Below, one piece after another: positions 23,941-40,733 of a DNA stretch of 52,474 nucleotides. Below the pieces are notes generated by a model. The model did not search any database, was not told the DNA's origin, and saw only the letters and a list, made by a program, of their open reading frames with translations. The DNA comes from Hydrogenothermaceae bacterium (lineage in GTDB: Bacteria; Aquificota; Aquificia; Aquificales; Hydrogenothermaceae), in NCBI GenBank assembly GCA_015519975.1, contig WIAL01000062.1:1-52474 (forward strand), read 5' to 3'. A program made the translations under genes and the position numbers. Each line of letters starts with the position of its first letter. The stretch's first letter is position 1.

Positions 23941-24738
23941 ATGGAACTTTGGAATTTTCTTGATGAATTAAAAGAAAAATTAAACGATTTAGAAGATATT
24001 AGAACAGAAAACTACAATACTATAGAACAAGCGATAAATAATGCATATTTAGAAAAACCAACTTGGAACAAAGTTGATAATGTTGTTGCAGTTTTTGCAG
24101 ATTTGAAAAATTCAACACAGATTTCTAATAGAAAAACAAAAAGAGTCTATGCTAAGTTTTTAGAATATACAGGATATCCATTTGTAAAAATCAATGACGA
24201 ATTTAATTCTGAATTTATTGATATAAAAGGAGATGGAGGAATATCCCTTTTTTCTGGTAAATATGCAGAAGTTAGGGCTTTTTTAGCTGCCGAAACATTC
24301 AAAACATTTCAAGAAAAATATGTACGAGAAAAATTCAAAAATAAATATGGCGTAAATCTTTCATTTGGAATCGGAATTTCAAAAGGAGATTTGCTTGTAA
24401 AACGAATAGGGCGAAGGAAAGGAGATAATAATTTTTTTGTATGGGCAGGTAATGCTATCAATAATGCTGCATTGATTTCAAAAGACGTAAAACGCCTTTC
24501 TGATAAAACAGTAATAGGAATTGATGAAAGCATATATAACGTCTTAAATCAAGAAAAGTTTAGGAATTACTTAGTCTATTCTTGTGGATGTCCAAAAGGT
24601 GAAAAGGTTAAACTTTGGAAGAAACATTATGTAAAAGATGAAAGCAATTTCAAATATTACAAAATTGAAAGTGACTGGTGCGAAACACATGGAGAACAAT
24701 ACATAAATGCTGTTTTGGAGATAATCAATGAGTCTTAA
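23941..24738 (+). CDS. Class III nucleotide cyclase 2 (Pycsar PycC-like, altered active site)
   Basis: The 265-residue soluble protein is a second, clearly different cyclase. Metal aspartates are Asp54 (VVAVFADLKNSTQIS) and Asp98 (FIDIKGDGGISLFSG). The signature FVWAGNAINNAALISKDV keeps Asn174, but the position equal to the usual arginine is Leu178. A C-terminal segment (YSCGCPKGEKVKLWKKHY) carries cysteines not seen in cyclase 1. It starts 6 bases after cyclase 1, so the two could form a heterodimer or serve different effectors. Its 3' end overlaps the large membrane protein gene by 11 bases, which points to that protein as its partner. Confidence 0.72.
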   Translation: MELWNFLDELKEKLNDLEDIRTENYNTIEQAINNAYLEKPTWNKVDNVVAVFADLKNSTQISNRKTKRVYAKFLEYTGYPFVKINDEFNSEFIDIKGDGGISLFSGKYAEVRAFLAAETFKTFQEKYVREKFKNKYGVNLSFGIGISKGDLLVKRIGRRKGDNNFFVWAGNAINNAALISKDVKRLSDKTVIGIDESIYNVLNQEKFRNYLVYSCGCPKGEKVKLWKKHYVKDESNFKYYKIESDWCETHGEQYINAVLEIINES

Positions 24739-30053: not shown

Positions 30054-30623
30054 GTTTTTAGCGTGCCTATAAGGAATTGAAACATGGAAAAGTATATGAG
30101 TTTAATGTTGTTGTCCATCCGTTTTTAGCGTGCCTATAAGGAATTGAAACAGAAACCGTATAAAGCATCTCCTACTTGAGATAACAATGTTTTTAGCGTG
30201 CCTATAAGGAATTGAAACATATCTAAAAAAACATTACAAGAAACAGAAGAAGAATTGTTTTTAGCGTGCCTATAAGGAATTGAAACTCTAAATCATCTAT
30301 AGTAGTTTTTATCGCTGTCTTTATGGTTTTTAGCGTGCCTATAAGGAATTGAAACGCCTGTGCAGACCATTTACAAGTTAGCTATTTAAAGCCGTTTTTA
30401 GCGTGCCTATAAGGAATTGAAACCAAGCCTAAAATAAATTTCTGGTTTTCTGCCTGAAGTTTTTAGCGTGCCTATAAGGAATTGAAACAGTTTGAATATT
30501 GAATACACATATCAAGGACAAAAACAGGTTTTTAGCGTGCCTATAAGGAATTGAAACGGCTCTTTTCTTTCAACTCCAGCATTTTGGTCTGCTGTTTTTA
30601 GCGTGCCTATAAGGAATTAAATC
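30054..30623 (+). CRISPR. CRISPR array 2: 9 repeats, 8 spacers
   Basis: Thirty-base repeats beginning GTTTTTAGCGTGCC and ending GGAATTGAAAC start at 30054, 30121, 30189, 30257, 30326, 30394, 30459, 30528 and 30594. Eight are identical and differ from the array 1 repeat only by G instead of A at position 12. The last (30594-30623) has a changed 3' end (AATTAAATC). Spacers are 37, 38, 38, 39, 38, 35, 39 and 36 nt. Array 2 is longer than array 1 and lies next to the adaptation genes. No spacer was seen to match elsewhere in the window by eye. Confidence 0.98.
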
Positions 30624-30668
30624 TAGCTTCAAGAATTTGGCTAAGGTTTTGTTCCATGATTATTTCAC

Positions 30669-30764
30669 TGATGAGGTGACAGGTGGAAAATCGGCGTTGC
30701 CAGCGGCGGCTTTGGTTAACCCAATGCCGGTATGAGGGAAAGTAGCCGTCCCTCCACTTCATCG
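30669..30764 (+). ncRNA. Candidate structured RNA (closed stem, two hairpins, loop-loop pairing)
   Basis: This segment is about 55% G+C in roughly 30% G+C surroundings and has no open frame of note. By hand: a 9-bp closing stem GATGAGGTG (30670-30678) / CACTTCATC (30755-30763) with one G-U; an inner stem CGGCGTT (30692-30698) / AATGCCG (30723-30729) with one G-U; a hairpin GAGGGA (30734-30739) / TCCCTC (30749-30754); and pairing of the two loops by CGGCT (30707-30711) with AGCCG (30744-30748). It lies between array 2 and cas4. It matches no riboswitch or ribozyme consensus that I can recall. The strand is taken from its neighbours. The remaining gap 30624-30833 is AT-rich. Confidence 0.55.
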
Positions 30765-30833
30765 TATATGCTTTTGTTATTTATTAAGAGAAAAAAGTTG
30801 AAATTTGATTTAAAGTAAAGTAGTTTTAAGAGC

Positions 30834-31331
30834 ATGGGGGAATTACAAGATATAAACGGAACTTTAATATGGTATTACCACATATGTCCGCGGGAAGTCT
30901 GGCTGATCGGACACGGTATAGAAGCTGATCAGGAAAGTGATTTTCTTTTACTTGGAAGACACATTCACGAAATCTTTTATAAAAGGCAGAAAAAAGAATT
31001 TATGATAGACAACACCATAAAAATAGATATTCTCCCTTCTAAAAAAGTCATCGGAGAAATCAAGAAATCCTCAAAATATATCAAAAGTGCAAAAATGCAG
31101 GTTGCATTTTATCTTTACTATTTGAAACAAAAAGGAATAAACATAGAGGGTGAACTTCTTATACCAGAAGAAAGAAAAAGAGAAAAAATAAAACTAACAA
31201 CAGACTTAGAAAAAGAACTTGAAAAATCTATTACAGAAATTAAAAAGATTTTAAAAATGAATAAACCGCCGCAGCCAAAGAAAATACCGTACTGTAAAAA
31301 TTGTGCTTATAAAGAGATGTGCTGGAGTTAA
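30834..31331 (+). CDS. cas4: Cas4, CRISPR adaptation nuclease with Fe-S cluster
   Basis: The 165-residue protein has the Cas4 pattern: an N-terminal YYHICPREVWL with Cys18, a GRHIHEIFYKR helix, RecB-type nuclease residues in IKIDIL and VIGEIKKSSK (E-x-K), and three C-terminal cysteines (Cys154, 157 and 163 in YCKNCAYKEMCWS). Together with Cys18 these should bind a 4Fe-4S cluster. Cas4 trims prespacers and selects the PAM side during integration. Start is ATG 30834. It is followed after three bases by cas1. Confidence 0.93.
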   Translation: MGELQDINGTLIWYYHICPREVWLIGHGIEADQESDFLLLGRHIHEIFYKRQKKEFMIDNTIKIDILPSKKVIGEIKKSSKYIKSAKMQVAFYLYYLKQKGINIEGELLIPEERKREKIKLTTDLEKELEKSITEIKKILKMNKPPQPKKIPYCKNCAYKEMCWS

Positions 31332-31334
31332 AAA

Positions 31335-32327
31335 TTGAAAAAACCAATATATATTTTCAACGATGGACAGCTTAAAAGAAAAGATAACACACTTTTATTC
31401 ATCAAAGAAAACGAAAAGAAAGTCATTCCTATAAACGCAATATCAGAAATTCACGTATTCGGAGAAATTGATTTAAACAAAAGAGTATTAGAATTTCTAA
31501 CCAAAAATAAAGTGCCTGTATTCTTTTACAATCACTACGGCTACTATATTGGAAGTTTTTATCCAAGAGAATATCTAAATTCAGGTTTGATTATCTTAAA
31601 ACAGGCTGAATTTTATCTAAAACATAAAGAAAGAATGTTTTTAGCAAAAAGTTTTGTTTCAGGTGCTGCTGCAAACATACTAAAAAATCTCAGTTATTAC
31701 AAAAAATCAAAAGAGGAATACATAAAACCTTATATTGAGGAAATTTTAGAAAAATCAAAAGAAATTGATTCAAAAAAAGATATCCCGTCTCTAATGGCAT
31801 TAGAAGGAGAAATCAGAAAGAAATATTATGAAGCATTTAATGTGGTTTTAAACATTGGAGATTTTTATTTTGATAAAAGAACAAAAAGACCGCCTGAAAA
31901 TCCTTTAAATGCCCTAATCAGCTTTGGAAACTCATTGATATACACTACCATTTTATCCCAGATTTACAGGATACACCTTGACCCAAGAATTGGCTATCTT
32001 CACGAAACAAACCAGAGAAGTTTTAGTTTAAATTTGGATCTGGCAGAAATTTTTAAACCGATTATTGTGGATAGAGTTATTTTTAGCCTAATAAACAAAA
32101 ATCAAATTCAACTCAAACATTTTGAAGAAGATATTGATTATACCTACTTGAATGAAAAGGGAAAGCAGATCTTTATAAAGGCTTATGAAGAAAAATTAGC
32201 TACAACCATTAAATATAAAAACTTAGGGAAAGTTTCTTACAGAAAACTGATAAGGCTTGAATGTTATAAACTTTATAAACATTTCTTTGGTGAAGATATT
32301 TATAAACCCTTTGTGGCAAGCTGGTGA
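31335..32327 (+). CDS. cas1: Cas1 integrase
   Basis: The 330-residue protein begins with YIFNDGQLKRKDNTLLFI, the type I-B Cas1 N-terminal beta domain. The metal-binding residues are Glu157 (MALEGEIRKKYY), His223 (GYLHETNQRSFSLNLDL) and Asp235/Glu238 (DLAEIFKP). Cas1 with Cas2 integrates new spacers at the leader-repeat junction. Start is TTG 31335. A single cas1-cas2 set is present for both arrays, so one adaptation machine probably serves the type I-B and type III-C effectors. Confidence 0.95.
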   Translation: MKKPIYIFNDGQLKRKDNTLLFIKENEKKVIPINAISEIHVFGEIDLNKRVLEFLTKNKVPVFFYNHYGYYIGSFYPREYLNSGLIILKQAEFYLKHKERMFLAKSFVSGAAANILKNLSYYKKSKEEYIKPYIEEILEKSKEIDSKKDIPSLMALEGEIRKKYYEAFNVVLNIGDFYFDKRTKRPPENPLNALISFGNSLIYTTILSQIYRIHLDPRIGYLHETNQRSFSLNLDLAEIFKPIIVDRVIFSLINKNQIQLKHFEEDIDYTYLNEKGKQIFIKAYEEKLATTIKYKNLGKVSYRKLIRLECYKLYKHFFGEDIYKPFVASW

Positions 32328-32330
32328 GAC

Positions 32331-32597
32331 ATGTTTGTTATTCTTGTTTATGATGCGAATGAAAAAAGAGTTCAAAAATTTCATAAAGTTTGCAAAAAAT
32401 ATCTAACATGGGTACAGAACAGTGTATTCGAAGGGGAGATTAGCGAAACTACTTTAAGAATTTTAAAGGATGAGCTTAAAGAGATAATGGATGAAAATGA
32501 AGATAGTGTTTTAATTTACAAATTCAGAACTAAAAAGTATTATAATAGAGAAAGCATAGGTATATCAAAACCATCTCACGAGGACATGTTTTTTTGA
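32331..32597 (+). CDS. cas2: Cas2
   Basis: The 88-residue protein has the Cas2 ferredoxin-like signature VILVYDANEKRVQKFHKVCKKYLTWVQNSVFEGEIS, with the conserved aspartate near residue 8 (VYDAN) and the C-terminal SIGISKPSHEDMFF. It forms the central dimer of the Cas1-Cas2 integrase. It lies 3 bases after cas1 and ends the island. An AT-rich hairpin and T-rich stretch (about 32603-32635) on the plus strand within the 3' end of the next, convergent gene could stop transcription. Confidence 0.95.
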   Translation: MFVILVYDANEKRVQKFHKVCKKYLTWVQNSVFEGEISETTLRILKDELKEIMDENEDSVLIYKFRTKKYYNRESIGISKPSHEDMFF

Positions 32598-38460: not shown

Positions 38461-38895
38461 TTAACGCTTAGACCATCTGTATTTAGCTCTCGCACCCATT
38501 TGAGCGTATTTCTTACGTTCTTTAACTCTTGCATCTCTAGTCATAAGTCCAGCTTTCTTTAACACAGGTCTTAATTCCGGGTTGTATGCCTCTAACGCTT
38601 TTGCTATTCCATACATTACAGCTTCTGCTTGTGCAGGCTTACCGCTACCTTTTACAGTTGCATAAACATCAAACTTTCCGAGAGTTTCAGTTATAACAAA
38701 TGGCCTGTTTATTTTTGCCATTAATATATCTCTTTCAAAATAATCTTTAGCTTCCCATTCTTTATTTGATGAAGATTTAACAACTATTCTTCCTGTTCCT
38801 CCAGGTATTATCCAAACTCTAGCAACAGCTTCTTTTCTTCTTCCTGTTCCATATTTTGCAGTTTTTGGATCAACTTTCATTAATTTAGCTCCCAA
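38461..38895 (-). CDS. rpsI: 30S ribosomal protein S9
   Basis: The 144-residue protein (from TTG 38895) has the S9 motifs YGTGRRKEAVARVW, VKGSGKPAQAEAVMYGIAKAL and the C-terminal tail KYAQMGARAKYRWSKR that reaches into the ribosomal P site. TTG 38895 is eight bases from a perfect AAGGAGG (complement of 38904-38910); an internal ATG at 38880 with GGGAG upstream is an alternative giving 139 residues. Its ribosome site overlaps the end of rplM. Confidence 0.95.
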   Translation of the reverse strand: MGAKLMKVDPKTAKYGTGRRKEAVARVWIIPGGTGRIVVKSSSNKEWEAKDYFERDILMAKINRPFVITETLGKFDVYATVKGSGKPAQAEAVMYGIAKALEAYNPELRPVLKKAGLMTRDARVKERKKYAQMGARAKYRWSKR

Positions 38896-38908
38896 ATTCT
38901 AAACCTCC

Positions 38909-39361
38909 TTAAAAATTCTTCCACATAGGAACTATTTCATCAATTGGTTTTGGTTTTTGAGCATGATGATTGTGCTCACTTCCTCTATAAACTTTGAGTC
39001 TTTTCATAAATCTTTTTTGAAGTTTATTTTTAGGAAGCATTCTTTCAACAGCAAGTCTAATAACTTCTTCAGGTTTGTTCTCAAGCATCCATTTTAAAGT
39101 TCTTGTTTTTAATCCGCCAGGATAGCCAGAATATGAATGATAAAGTTTAGCTGTTTCTTTATTTCCTGTGTAAGTTATTTTATCTGCATTTAAAACAATT
39201 ACAAAATCACCAACATCCATATCTGGTTGAAAATAAGGTTTATGTTTTCCTCTTAAAACATTTGCTATTAAAGTTGCAAGTCTTCCAAGGGTTTTTCCTG
39301 TAGCGTCAACAACATACCACTGTCTTTCTATTTCATTAACATTTGGACGATATGTTTTCAT
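38909..39361 (-). CDS. rplM: 50S ribosomal protein L13
   Basis: The 150-residue protein matches L13: RQWYVVDATGKTLGRLATLIANVLRGKHKPYFQPD, VVLNADKITYTGNK, HSGYPGG-type SYSGYPGGLKTRT and AVERMLPKNKL. It is an early-binding large-subunit protein. It heads the rplM-rpsI-argC unit. The promoter should lie in the 130 bp between it and the divergent tyrS gene. Confidence 0.96.
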   Translation of the reverse strand: MKTYRPNVNEIERQWYVVDATGKTLGRLATLIANVLRGKHKPYFQPDMDVGDFVIVLNADKITYTGNKETAKLYHSYSGYPGGLKTRTLKWMLENKPEEVIRLAVERMLPKNKLQKRFMKRLKVYRGSEHNHHAQKPKPIDEIVPMWKNF

Positions 39362-39491
39362 TTACAGCAACTCCTTTCCAAAATTTAGTATATACAGAAA
39401 GAATATTATCTAATATATATTTTTTGTTGTCAAATATTTTACCAAAATGTTAAACTAATTTCTAAAATTTAAAGATTTTAGGAGGATTTTT

Positions 39492-40733
39492 TTGAAAAAT
39501 CTTAAGGATTTACCTATTGAAGAGCAATTAAAATATATAAAAAAAGGAACGATTGAAATAATTTCAGAAGAAGAATTAATTGAAAAACTAAAAGAAGGAA
39601 GGCCTTTAATTGTAAAGGCAGGATTTGATCCTACAGCCCCTGACCTTCATCTTGGACATACTGTTTTGCTTCAAAAACTTAGAACTTTTCAGCAGCTAGG
39701 GCACATGGTTTATTTTATTATTGGTGATTTTACCGCAATGATTGGTGACCCATCAGGCAGAGATAAAACAAGACCTCCTTTGACAAAAGAGCAGATTTTA
39801 GAAAATGCGAAAACCTATAAAGAACAGGTGTTTAAAGTTTTAGATCCTGAAAAAACTGTAGTTGTTTTTAACAGCGAATGGCTAGGAGATATGACTGCAG
39901 AGGATCTTATTAGATTAACTGCGAAATACACAGTTGCAAGAATGCTTGAAAGGGATGACTTTAAGAAAAGATTTTCTGAAAATAAACCTATAGCTATACA
40001 TGAATTTATATATCCTCTTTTACAGGCGTACGACTCTGTTGCTATAAAAGCAGATGTTGAACTTGGAGGATCAGATCAGAGGTTCAATCTTTTAATTGGA
40101 AGAGATATACAAAGGGAGTACGGCATAGAAAAACCTCAAGTTGCCATTTTACTACCTCTTCTTGTTGGAACTGACGGCGTTAGAAAAATGAGTAAATCTT
40201 ACGGCAACTACATTGGAATTACTGAACCACCAGAAGAAATGTTTGGGAAATTAATGTCAATACCGGATGAACTTATGTGGGATTACTGGAAACTTTTAAC
40301 TGACCTTACAGAAGAAGAAATTGAAAAAATGAAAGAAGATGTTGAAAAAGGTGTTTTACATCCTATGGATGTTAAAAAAGAGCTTGCAATGTATATTGTA
40401 GAAAGATTTCATTCAAAAGAAGACGCTGTAAAGGCAAAAGAACATTTTGAAAAAGTTCATTCTAAAAGAGAGCTTCCTGAAGATATCCCTGAACCTGAAA
40501 TTGTTATCTCAAGTGAAGAAAAGAAAATACCTTTATATGAACTTGTTTATAAATTAGGGTTTGCTTCATCAAAATCTGAAGCAAGAAGATTAATTAAAAG
40601 TGGTGCAGTTAAGATAGACGGAGAAAAGTTTACAGATTTTAATTTTGAAGTTGATTTAAGTAAGGAGTTTATCTTACAGGTTGGAAAAAGAAAATTTGCA
40701 AGAATAAAACCTGAAAATATTAAAGTTAGTTAG
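39492..40733 (+). CDS. tyrS: Tyrosyl-tRNA synthetase
   Basis: The 413-residue class I synthetase has HLGH ([14 protein letters not shown]), the tyrosine-binding [23 protein letters not shown] segment, KMSKS ([13 protein letters not shown]), and a C-terminal S4 RNA-binding domain ([23 protein letters not shown]-like). The length and motifs match the TyrZ-like subgroup. Start is TTG 39492 after AGGAGG (39480-39485). It is divergent from rplM. Confidence 0.95.

Follow-up and report, generated by a model that had tools for sequence, protein, structure and literature searches.

The window, by which we mean the whole 52,474-nucleotide stretch of Hydrogenothermaceae DNA that was analysed, carries between CRISPR array 2 and cas4 a GC-rich segment that is very probably a decayed copy of an RNA encoded at the right end of Mu-like phages. 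Our best overall explanation, which we hold with considerable confidence, is that the segment is the relic of a right-end RNA gene from the Mu-like phages of Aquificota and that the intact RNA most likely acts in trans. What looked like a CRISPR control element is thus re-read as debris of a phage inserting at a CRISPR locus. The relevant features of the window, all on the + strand, are listed here.

30054..30557, +, CRISPR array 2, eight intact repeats (GTTTTTAGCGTGCCTATAAGGAATTGAAAC; Rfam CRISPR-DR2)
30594..30623, +, degenerate repeat ending array 2; the relic follows after about 40 bp
30662..30776, +, very probable relic of the phage right-end RNA (R1 cmsearch, blastn)
30665..30678, +, 5' arm of P1; 30669-30678 paired, pairing of the outer 30666-30668 gone
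30682..30686, +, 5' arm of P2; one pair is broken, with GGTGG here against GCTGG in the remaining Hydrogenothermaceae copies
30687..30699, +, loop L2, carrying the kissing partner CGGC at 30692-30695
30700..30704, +, 3' arm of P2, placed by covariation
30707..30729, +, variable hairpin P3, CGGC-U-UUGG / CCAA-U-GCCG; differs compensatorily from every other copy
30734..30754, +, hairpin P4, GAGGGA/TCCCTC; its loop L4 has GCCG at 30745-30748, which kisses L2
30755..30764, +, 3' arm of P1; the last 4-5 pairs of the homologues (CAGTGG) are missing here
30834..31331, +, cas4 (Pfam Cas_Cas4, E 1.8e-56); a neighbor, on the evidence not regulated by the element
31335..32327, +, cas1, intact in the window; the homologous gene is split by a prophage in G000:C43 and G030
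32331..32597, +, cas2

As an earlier note on this DNA had pointed out, the region between array 2 and cas4 stands out by its composition, with 51% G+C at 30662-30776 against about 25-37% in the surroundings. The same interval on the + strand is the whole match of our covariance model R1 (cmsearch, 109.9 bits, E 5e-32), a score that is not independent, since the window sequence is one of the 8 used for R1. Independently of R1, blastn aligned window 30659-30763 with G000:C43 at 91% identity and window 30666-30762 with G007 at 94%. The earlier note could not place the element as a tRNA, an SRP RNA, or a riboswitch, and we reached the same result: ARAGORN detected no tRNA in the window, and none of the Rfam 15 covariance models matched the element in the window or in three intact homologue regions, at the gathering threshold or at E<=10.

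A blastn search of the same genome and 100 relatives yielded five real copies (G000:C43, 91%; G004, 91%; G007, 94% and 88%; G030, 85%), and a pattern scan of viral contigs found two differing copies in tandem on L044. A model built from the first eight copies recovered seven more, all in Desulfurobacteriaceae, another family of the same class, and one further copy was present on viral contig L076. The RNA is therefore represented in Aquificota by 16 distinct copies, 13 of them in 11 of 136 genomes and 3 on two viral contigs, at 1-2 copies per genome. A second model, built from all 16 copies, found no additional copy in the 136 Aquificota genomes, a motif search across 84,980 species confined true relatives to Aquificota, and blastn against plasmid and phage collections gave chance matches only. 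Motif hits in Paenibacillus, Competibacteraceae, Clostridia, and others were rejected, as they had unrelated surrounding DNA and poor model scores, and the weak model matches G120:C112 and G081:C2 were judged to be due to chance. The covariance search in related genomes that the earlier note had advised thus did find homologues with compensatory changes, in the context of phage right ends and not upstream of cas4. The segment also proved to match a mobile fragment, the right-end RNA of Mu-like phages, which the earlier note had named as the kind of result that would speak against its reading.

The intact RNA spans ∼107 nt and consists of a long closing stem, P1, and the hairpins P2, P3, and P4, with a kissing helix between L2 and L4. 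In the 16-sequence alignment, which was fitted to the model and leans towards the structure, 29 of 40 pairs showed two-sided changes; a hand-checked eight-sequence alignment agreed, with 18 of 40. Over the 16 sequences, pairing was kept in 93.3% of cells versus 70% in shuffles, and 166 cells were doubly changed versus 64 in shuffles. None of 500 shuffles reached the observed value on any covariation measure, and pairing fell to 40-60% in slid controls, in which the partner was moved by one to three columns. The kissing helix paired in 100% of cells and included a joint switch from CGGC/GCCG to CGCC/GGCG. It comprises 5 bp in the Desulfurobacteriaceae copies and 4 bp are supported in the window, so that the 5-bp loop-loop pairing of the earlier note is real (CGGC 30692-30695 with GCCG 30745-30748) and one pair shorter there. 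The sequence of P1 is wholly different between groups (CACTGATGAAGTG, GCGGTGGTG, GGTGCGTG, GGGGGATG) with the pairing retained, and P3 has been swapped for unrelated self-complementary hairpins despite near-identical flanks (G121 versus L076; G007a versus G007b). Conservation is highest in L2, P2, the junctions, P4, and L4, and the identity of P3 is just 35%. With outer P1 excluded, 46 cells held G-U and 1 held A-C in the + orientation; because G-U cells exceed A-C cells to this extent, the RNA strand is the + strand, that of the finder. Together, these data show that the structure of a + strand RNA is conserved by compensatory change, and they bear out, over 16 sequences, the pseudoknotted + strand RNA that had been proposed from the window. 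Since it matches no Rfam family tested, the RNA is a new family among the phage-encoded structured small RNAs, a known kind, and it adds to them a covariation-backed kissing pseudoknot carried by Mu-like phages of thermophiles.

Wherever phage DNA adjoins a copy, the phage is Mu-like and transposable and the RNA is found ∼0.2-0.3 kb in from its right end. There it occupies the stretch that separates the terminal repeats from the 3' end of the last late gene, points inward, and is convergent with that gene. A Mu gpF-like head protein (Phage_Mu_F), beside Portal_Mu and a capsid protein, is the product of the final phage gene in C43, G004, and G030. This gene terminates within the 3' arm of P1, and the RNA is oriented oppositely, from the phage end inward. 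The layout is likewise convergent in G117, G121, G129, and L076, as well as in G007b, where the last gene is small and unassigned and belongs to another Mu-like phage. Within the gpF group, all full-length members with downstream DNA in our data carry the RNA, and more distant gpF relatives are without it. Terminal inverted repeats bound the C43 prophage (574-38770), which encodes a MuA-like transposase (Mu-transpos_C and rve; phrog_310, E 2e-99) and a MuB-like ATPase (phrog_296, E 6e-40); MuA-like (phrog_310/Mu-transpos_C) and MuB-like (phrog_296) proteins were found in two different phages. Target duplications of 5 bp were identified in C43 (CTTGG) and G030 (AAAAT). The RNA is likely transcribed from its own predicted promoter: promoter hexamers that would start transcription at the foot of P1 beat shuffles in the Desulfurobacteriaceae copies only (p 0.01-0.03), and those in the AT-rich Hydrogenothermaceae copies were no better than shuffles.

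Some carriers hold more than one copy. The tandem copies at L044:12206-12446 come one from each sequence group, and P3 differs between these co-resident copies. G007 contains a pair of right-end fragments (485 bp; L041:6270-6752 and L042:6543-7026) with 88% identity. They are 40 kb apart, each directly downstream of a tRNA gene (tRNA-Trp and tRNA-Ser), and their RNAs have differing P3 hairpins. The difference in P3 between co-resident copies might be a mark of specificity. Separately, in the G004 phage, the gpF-like gene (L040:785-3229) contains an in-frame interruption of ∼340 residues that resembles an intein (after ...NHHNC, to ...CCWSGNC).

Compared with the phage copies, the window copy is damaged. 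It has six unpaired positions, the maximum in the family and equalled by the remnant in G134, and its defects include a G-G mismatch in P2 and the loss of outer P1. The 9-bp closing stem described earlier is present (30669-30678/30755-30764) as 10 pairs including a G-U, with the outer 4-5 pairs of the homologues mostly lost; the inner stems hold for P3 (30707-30729) and P4 (30734-30754), and the first of them, P2 (30682-30686/30700-30704), is the one broken by the mismatch. Against dinucleotide shuffles, the window sequence alone reached z -1.1, with 22 of 200 shuffles equally good (z -1.4 in a second run), versus z -3.8 to -6.0 and zero shuffles as good for intact copies. The structure is therefore established by the homologues only, the window sequence by itself folding like chance. 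Upstream of the window copy, no promoter signal was recognized and homology to the phage promoters was at chance level, and no phage homology was detected in the flanks on either side. The core is 92% identical to the phage copies and the flanks are unrelated. As the changes in P3 and P4 keep the pairing, the window copy descends from a functional RNA and decayed later.

Because the flanks are without phage homology, the case for a phage-end origin of the window copy draws on the element itself and a parallel in G125, where the phage terminus (TAAAGAAAAAGATGAG) opens an orphan element 20 bp past the last CRISPR repeat. The trailer end of array 2 would have received a phage right end, and the remainder would have been lost by deletion. 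We infer this route from the G125 orphan and from the Mu-like phage DMS3 of Pseudomonas, whose transposition within self-targeting lysogens deletes CRISPR loci (PMC11406979). No convincing protospacers were found in phage sequences for the spacers of window array 2 and of the G125 array, the two arrays compared. Relics are not always dead, since G007a and G125, which lie apart from intact phages, keep an intact RNA. We nevertheless consider it unlikely that the window copy is alive, that is, that the host retained a phage RNA beside the array, for example for superinfection immunity or for tuning the array or cas4-cas1-cas2. The 92% core identity amid unrelated flanks and the pairing-preserving differences in P3 and P4 would suit a living copy, as would the finding of two like-oriented orphans (window and G125) at array trailers and the structural integrity of the third, G007a. 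However, the broken P2 pair, the lost outer P1, the lack of a promoter, and a folding that equals shuffles all argue for decay, and a search with the RNA, which yields only phage right ends, inflates the share of orphan ones.

Six of the 14 copies other than that of the window (tandem L044 counted once) are inserted in CRISPR loci, a count based on few copies, some on short contigs, and with G120, G130, G134, and L044 not placeable. Three of these insertions interrupt cas1, at three different codons, and the 5-bp duplication was confirmed at two.

G000:C43:446-574 and 38739-39635 (L039, L072), cas1/prophage junctions; the prophage is flanked by cas1 residues 1-289 and 291-330, with duplication CTTGG
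G030:C3:26702 and C11:57691 (L043, L111), cas1/prophage junctions; the 5' part of cas1 ends on another contig with the phage left end, with duplication AAAAT
G004:C167:209-463 (L040), cas1 insertion at about codon 249; the left side is missing from the assembly

The other three are in arrays: L076, with ten repeats on the right side in a record without the left side; G121, with two repeats; and G125. The suspicion of CRISPR-like repeats beside G117 did not hold up. Arrays of the searched repeat type occupy well under 1% of these genomes, a figure that leaves aside other repeat types and cas1; with a generous target of 2%, the chance of at least 6 insertions in 14 is about 2e-7. The excess may reflect either targeting by the phage or the survival of only such lysogens. 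With such insertions in cas1 and arrays, the physical disarming of adaptive immunity by a transposable phage, through targeting or survivor selection, becomes a testable case. In the long G125 array (L062:3300-5400), repeats of the left half carry many single-base deletions and the right half is uniform, owing to decay or sequencing error.

What the intact RNA does can be proposed tentatively. That it is a protein-binding, trans-acting RNA is a reading we regard as quite possible, if still short of probable; we put forward a trans-acting small RNA because a conserved core lies among free stems, strand and position are constant, and the layout is convergent. A sigma-70-type promoter of its own would probably drive the RNA, with transcription beginning at the foot of P1. 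P1 and P3 would serve as interchangeable struts around the conserved core (GUGAMAGC, GAAARUCG, the L2-L4 kiss, UAUG, and P4), and this core would most likely bind a phage or host protein, perhaps in the service of lysogeny, transposition, or counter-defense.

Several other roles were weighed against a trans-acting RNA. The last-gene stop codon falls within the 3' arm of P1 in the Hydrogenothermaceae phages, and the element, where a last late gene is present, is always convergent with it, as would be expected of a 3'-end structure, terminator or stabilizer, of the phage late-operon mRNA on the opposite strand. We find this very unlikely, as the G-U to A-C ratio of 46 to 1 in the + orientation would mean dozens of mismatches on the other strand, and a conserved core combined with a kissing pseudoknot exceeds what a terminator needs. 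A phage-borne self-cleaving ribozyme is most unlikely: a kissing pseudoknot and a small invariant core amid freely varying stems form the pattern of small ribozymes, but no Rfam ribozyme family matched. The sharp boundaries of the window element, the two different tandem copies in L044, and the orphan copies could also suggest a self-mobile, MITE-like repeat with the ends CCACTGRTGARGTG...CACYTCATYAGTGG. Such a repeat is exceedingly improbable, because P1 varies completely in sequence with its pairing kept, unlike terminal repeats read by a transposase; moreover, copies with phage neighbors are always at one phage position, there are 1-2 copies per genome, and no target duplications were seen around the orphan copies. 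The leader riboswitch for cas4-cas1-cas2 suggested in the earlier note, or another cis-regulator of these genes, draws on the element ending 58-70 bp ahead of the first cas4 codon. No other copy precedes cas4, however, and in intact phages no same-strand gene follows the RNA at a distance comparable to that of the window cas4, the RNA instead facing the 3' end of a late gene. Cis-regulation of cas4 is therefore excluded for the RNA family, and for the window element, degraded exactly at the parts that would be required, its probability is next to negligible.

The remaining alternatives concern the conflict between phage and CRISPR-Cas. CRISPR loci account for nearly half of the mapped insertions, the C43 prophage contains a separate solitary CRISPR repeat, and RNA anti-CRISPRs do exist: Racrs are prophage-encoded small RNAs that mimic CRISPR repeats (PMC10651486). 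It is nevertheless distinctly unlikely that the right-end RNA blocks the host Cas machinery in this way. Both are small prophage RNAs linked to CRISPR-Cas conflict, but known Racrs are repeat mimics, and four copies of our RNA showed no consistent likeness, sense or antisense, to five host repeats. The CRISPR roles suggested for the element earlier also find no support: it is unlike CRISPR repeats, and its homologues are at the right ends of Mu-like phages. From the joint occurrence of the RNA and a marked excess of CRISPR-locus insertions, one could further suppose that the RNA steers transposition into cas1 and arrays or disarms CRISPR so that such lysogens survive; this is highly improbable, and if true, a phage RNA would be a component of target choice or counter-defense in a transposable phage. 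The solitary repeat, at G000:C43:11483-11512 (L071:3483-3512), adjoins the MuB-like gene and has 2 mismatches relative to the repeat of window array 2; it is a candidate Racr, and a better one than the right-end RNA.

Among known systems, Mu and DMS3 are the natural comparison for the carriers, which share with them MuA/MuB-like proteins, the 5-bp target duplication, and terminal inverted repeats. To our knowledge, neither Mu nor DMS3 has been described as having a structured RNA at its right end. DMS3 deletes CRISPR loci (PMC11406979), whereas the insertions of the Aquificota phages fall within cas1 and the arrays themselves. Type III toxin-antitoxin systems also contain a pseudoknotted small RNA, and the earlier note had considered an RNA antitoxin. 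The right-end RNA, however, has no tandem repeat of the 34-36-nt type and no adjoining toxin gene; its neighbor proteins are Mu gpF, Cas2, Cas4, and products of host genes, with no toxin of the ToxN, CptN, or TenpN type. RNA-based phage immunity, as exerted by the P4 CI RNA and the P1/P7 C4 RNA, relies on a short stable phage RNA. A short stable RNA with its own putative promoter would be a parallel, with no sequence relation in Rfam. The packaging RNA of phi29 (pRNA, Rfam Phage_pRNA), which the packaging motor requires and whose loops join separate molecules into a ring, is about 110-120 nt long, with a long closing stem and hairpin loops that pair mutually. It resembles our RNA in size, closing stem, and loop-loop pairing, a likeness that we treat as a lead only, but there is no Rfam sequence or covariance match, and the Aquificota carriers, Mu-like phages with MuA/MuB-like proteins, belong to a different phage group.

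Elsewhere in the window, at 23941-24738, inside the CRISPR-cas region upstream of array 2, we observed a protein with a weak, above-threshold match to an adenylate/guanylate cyclase catalytic domain.
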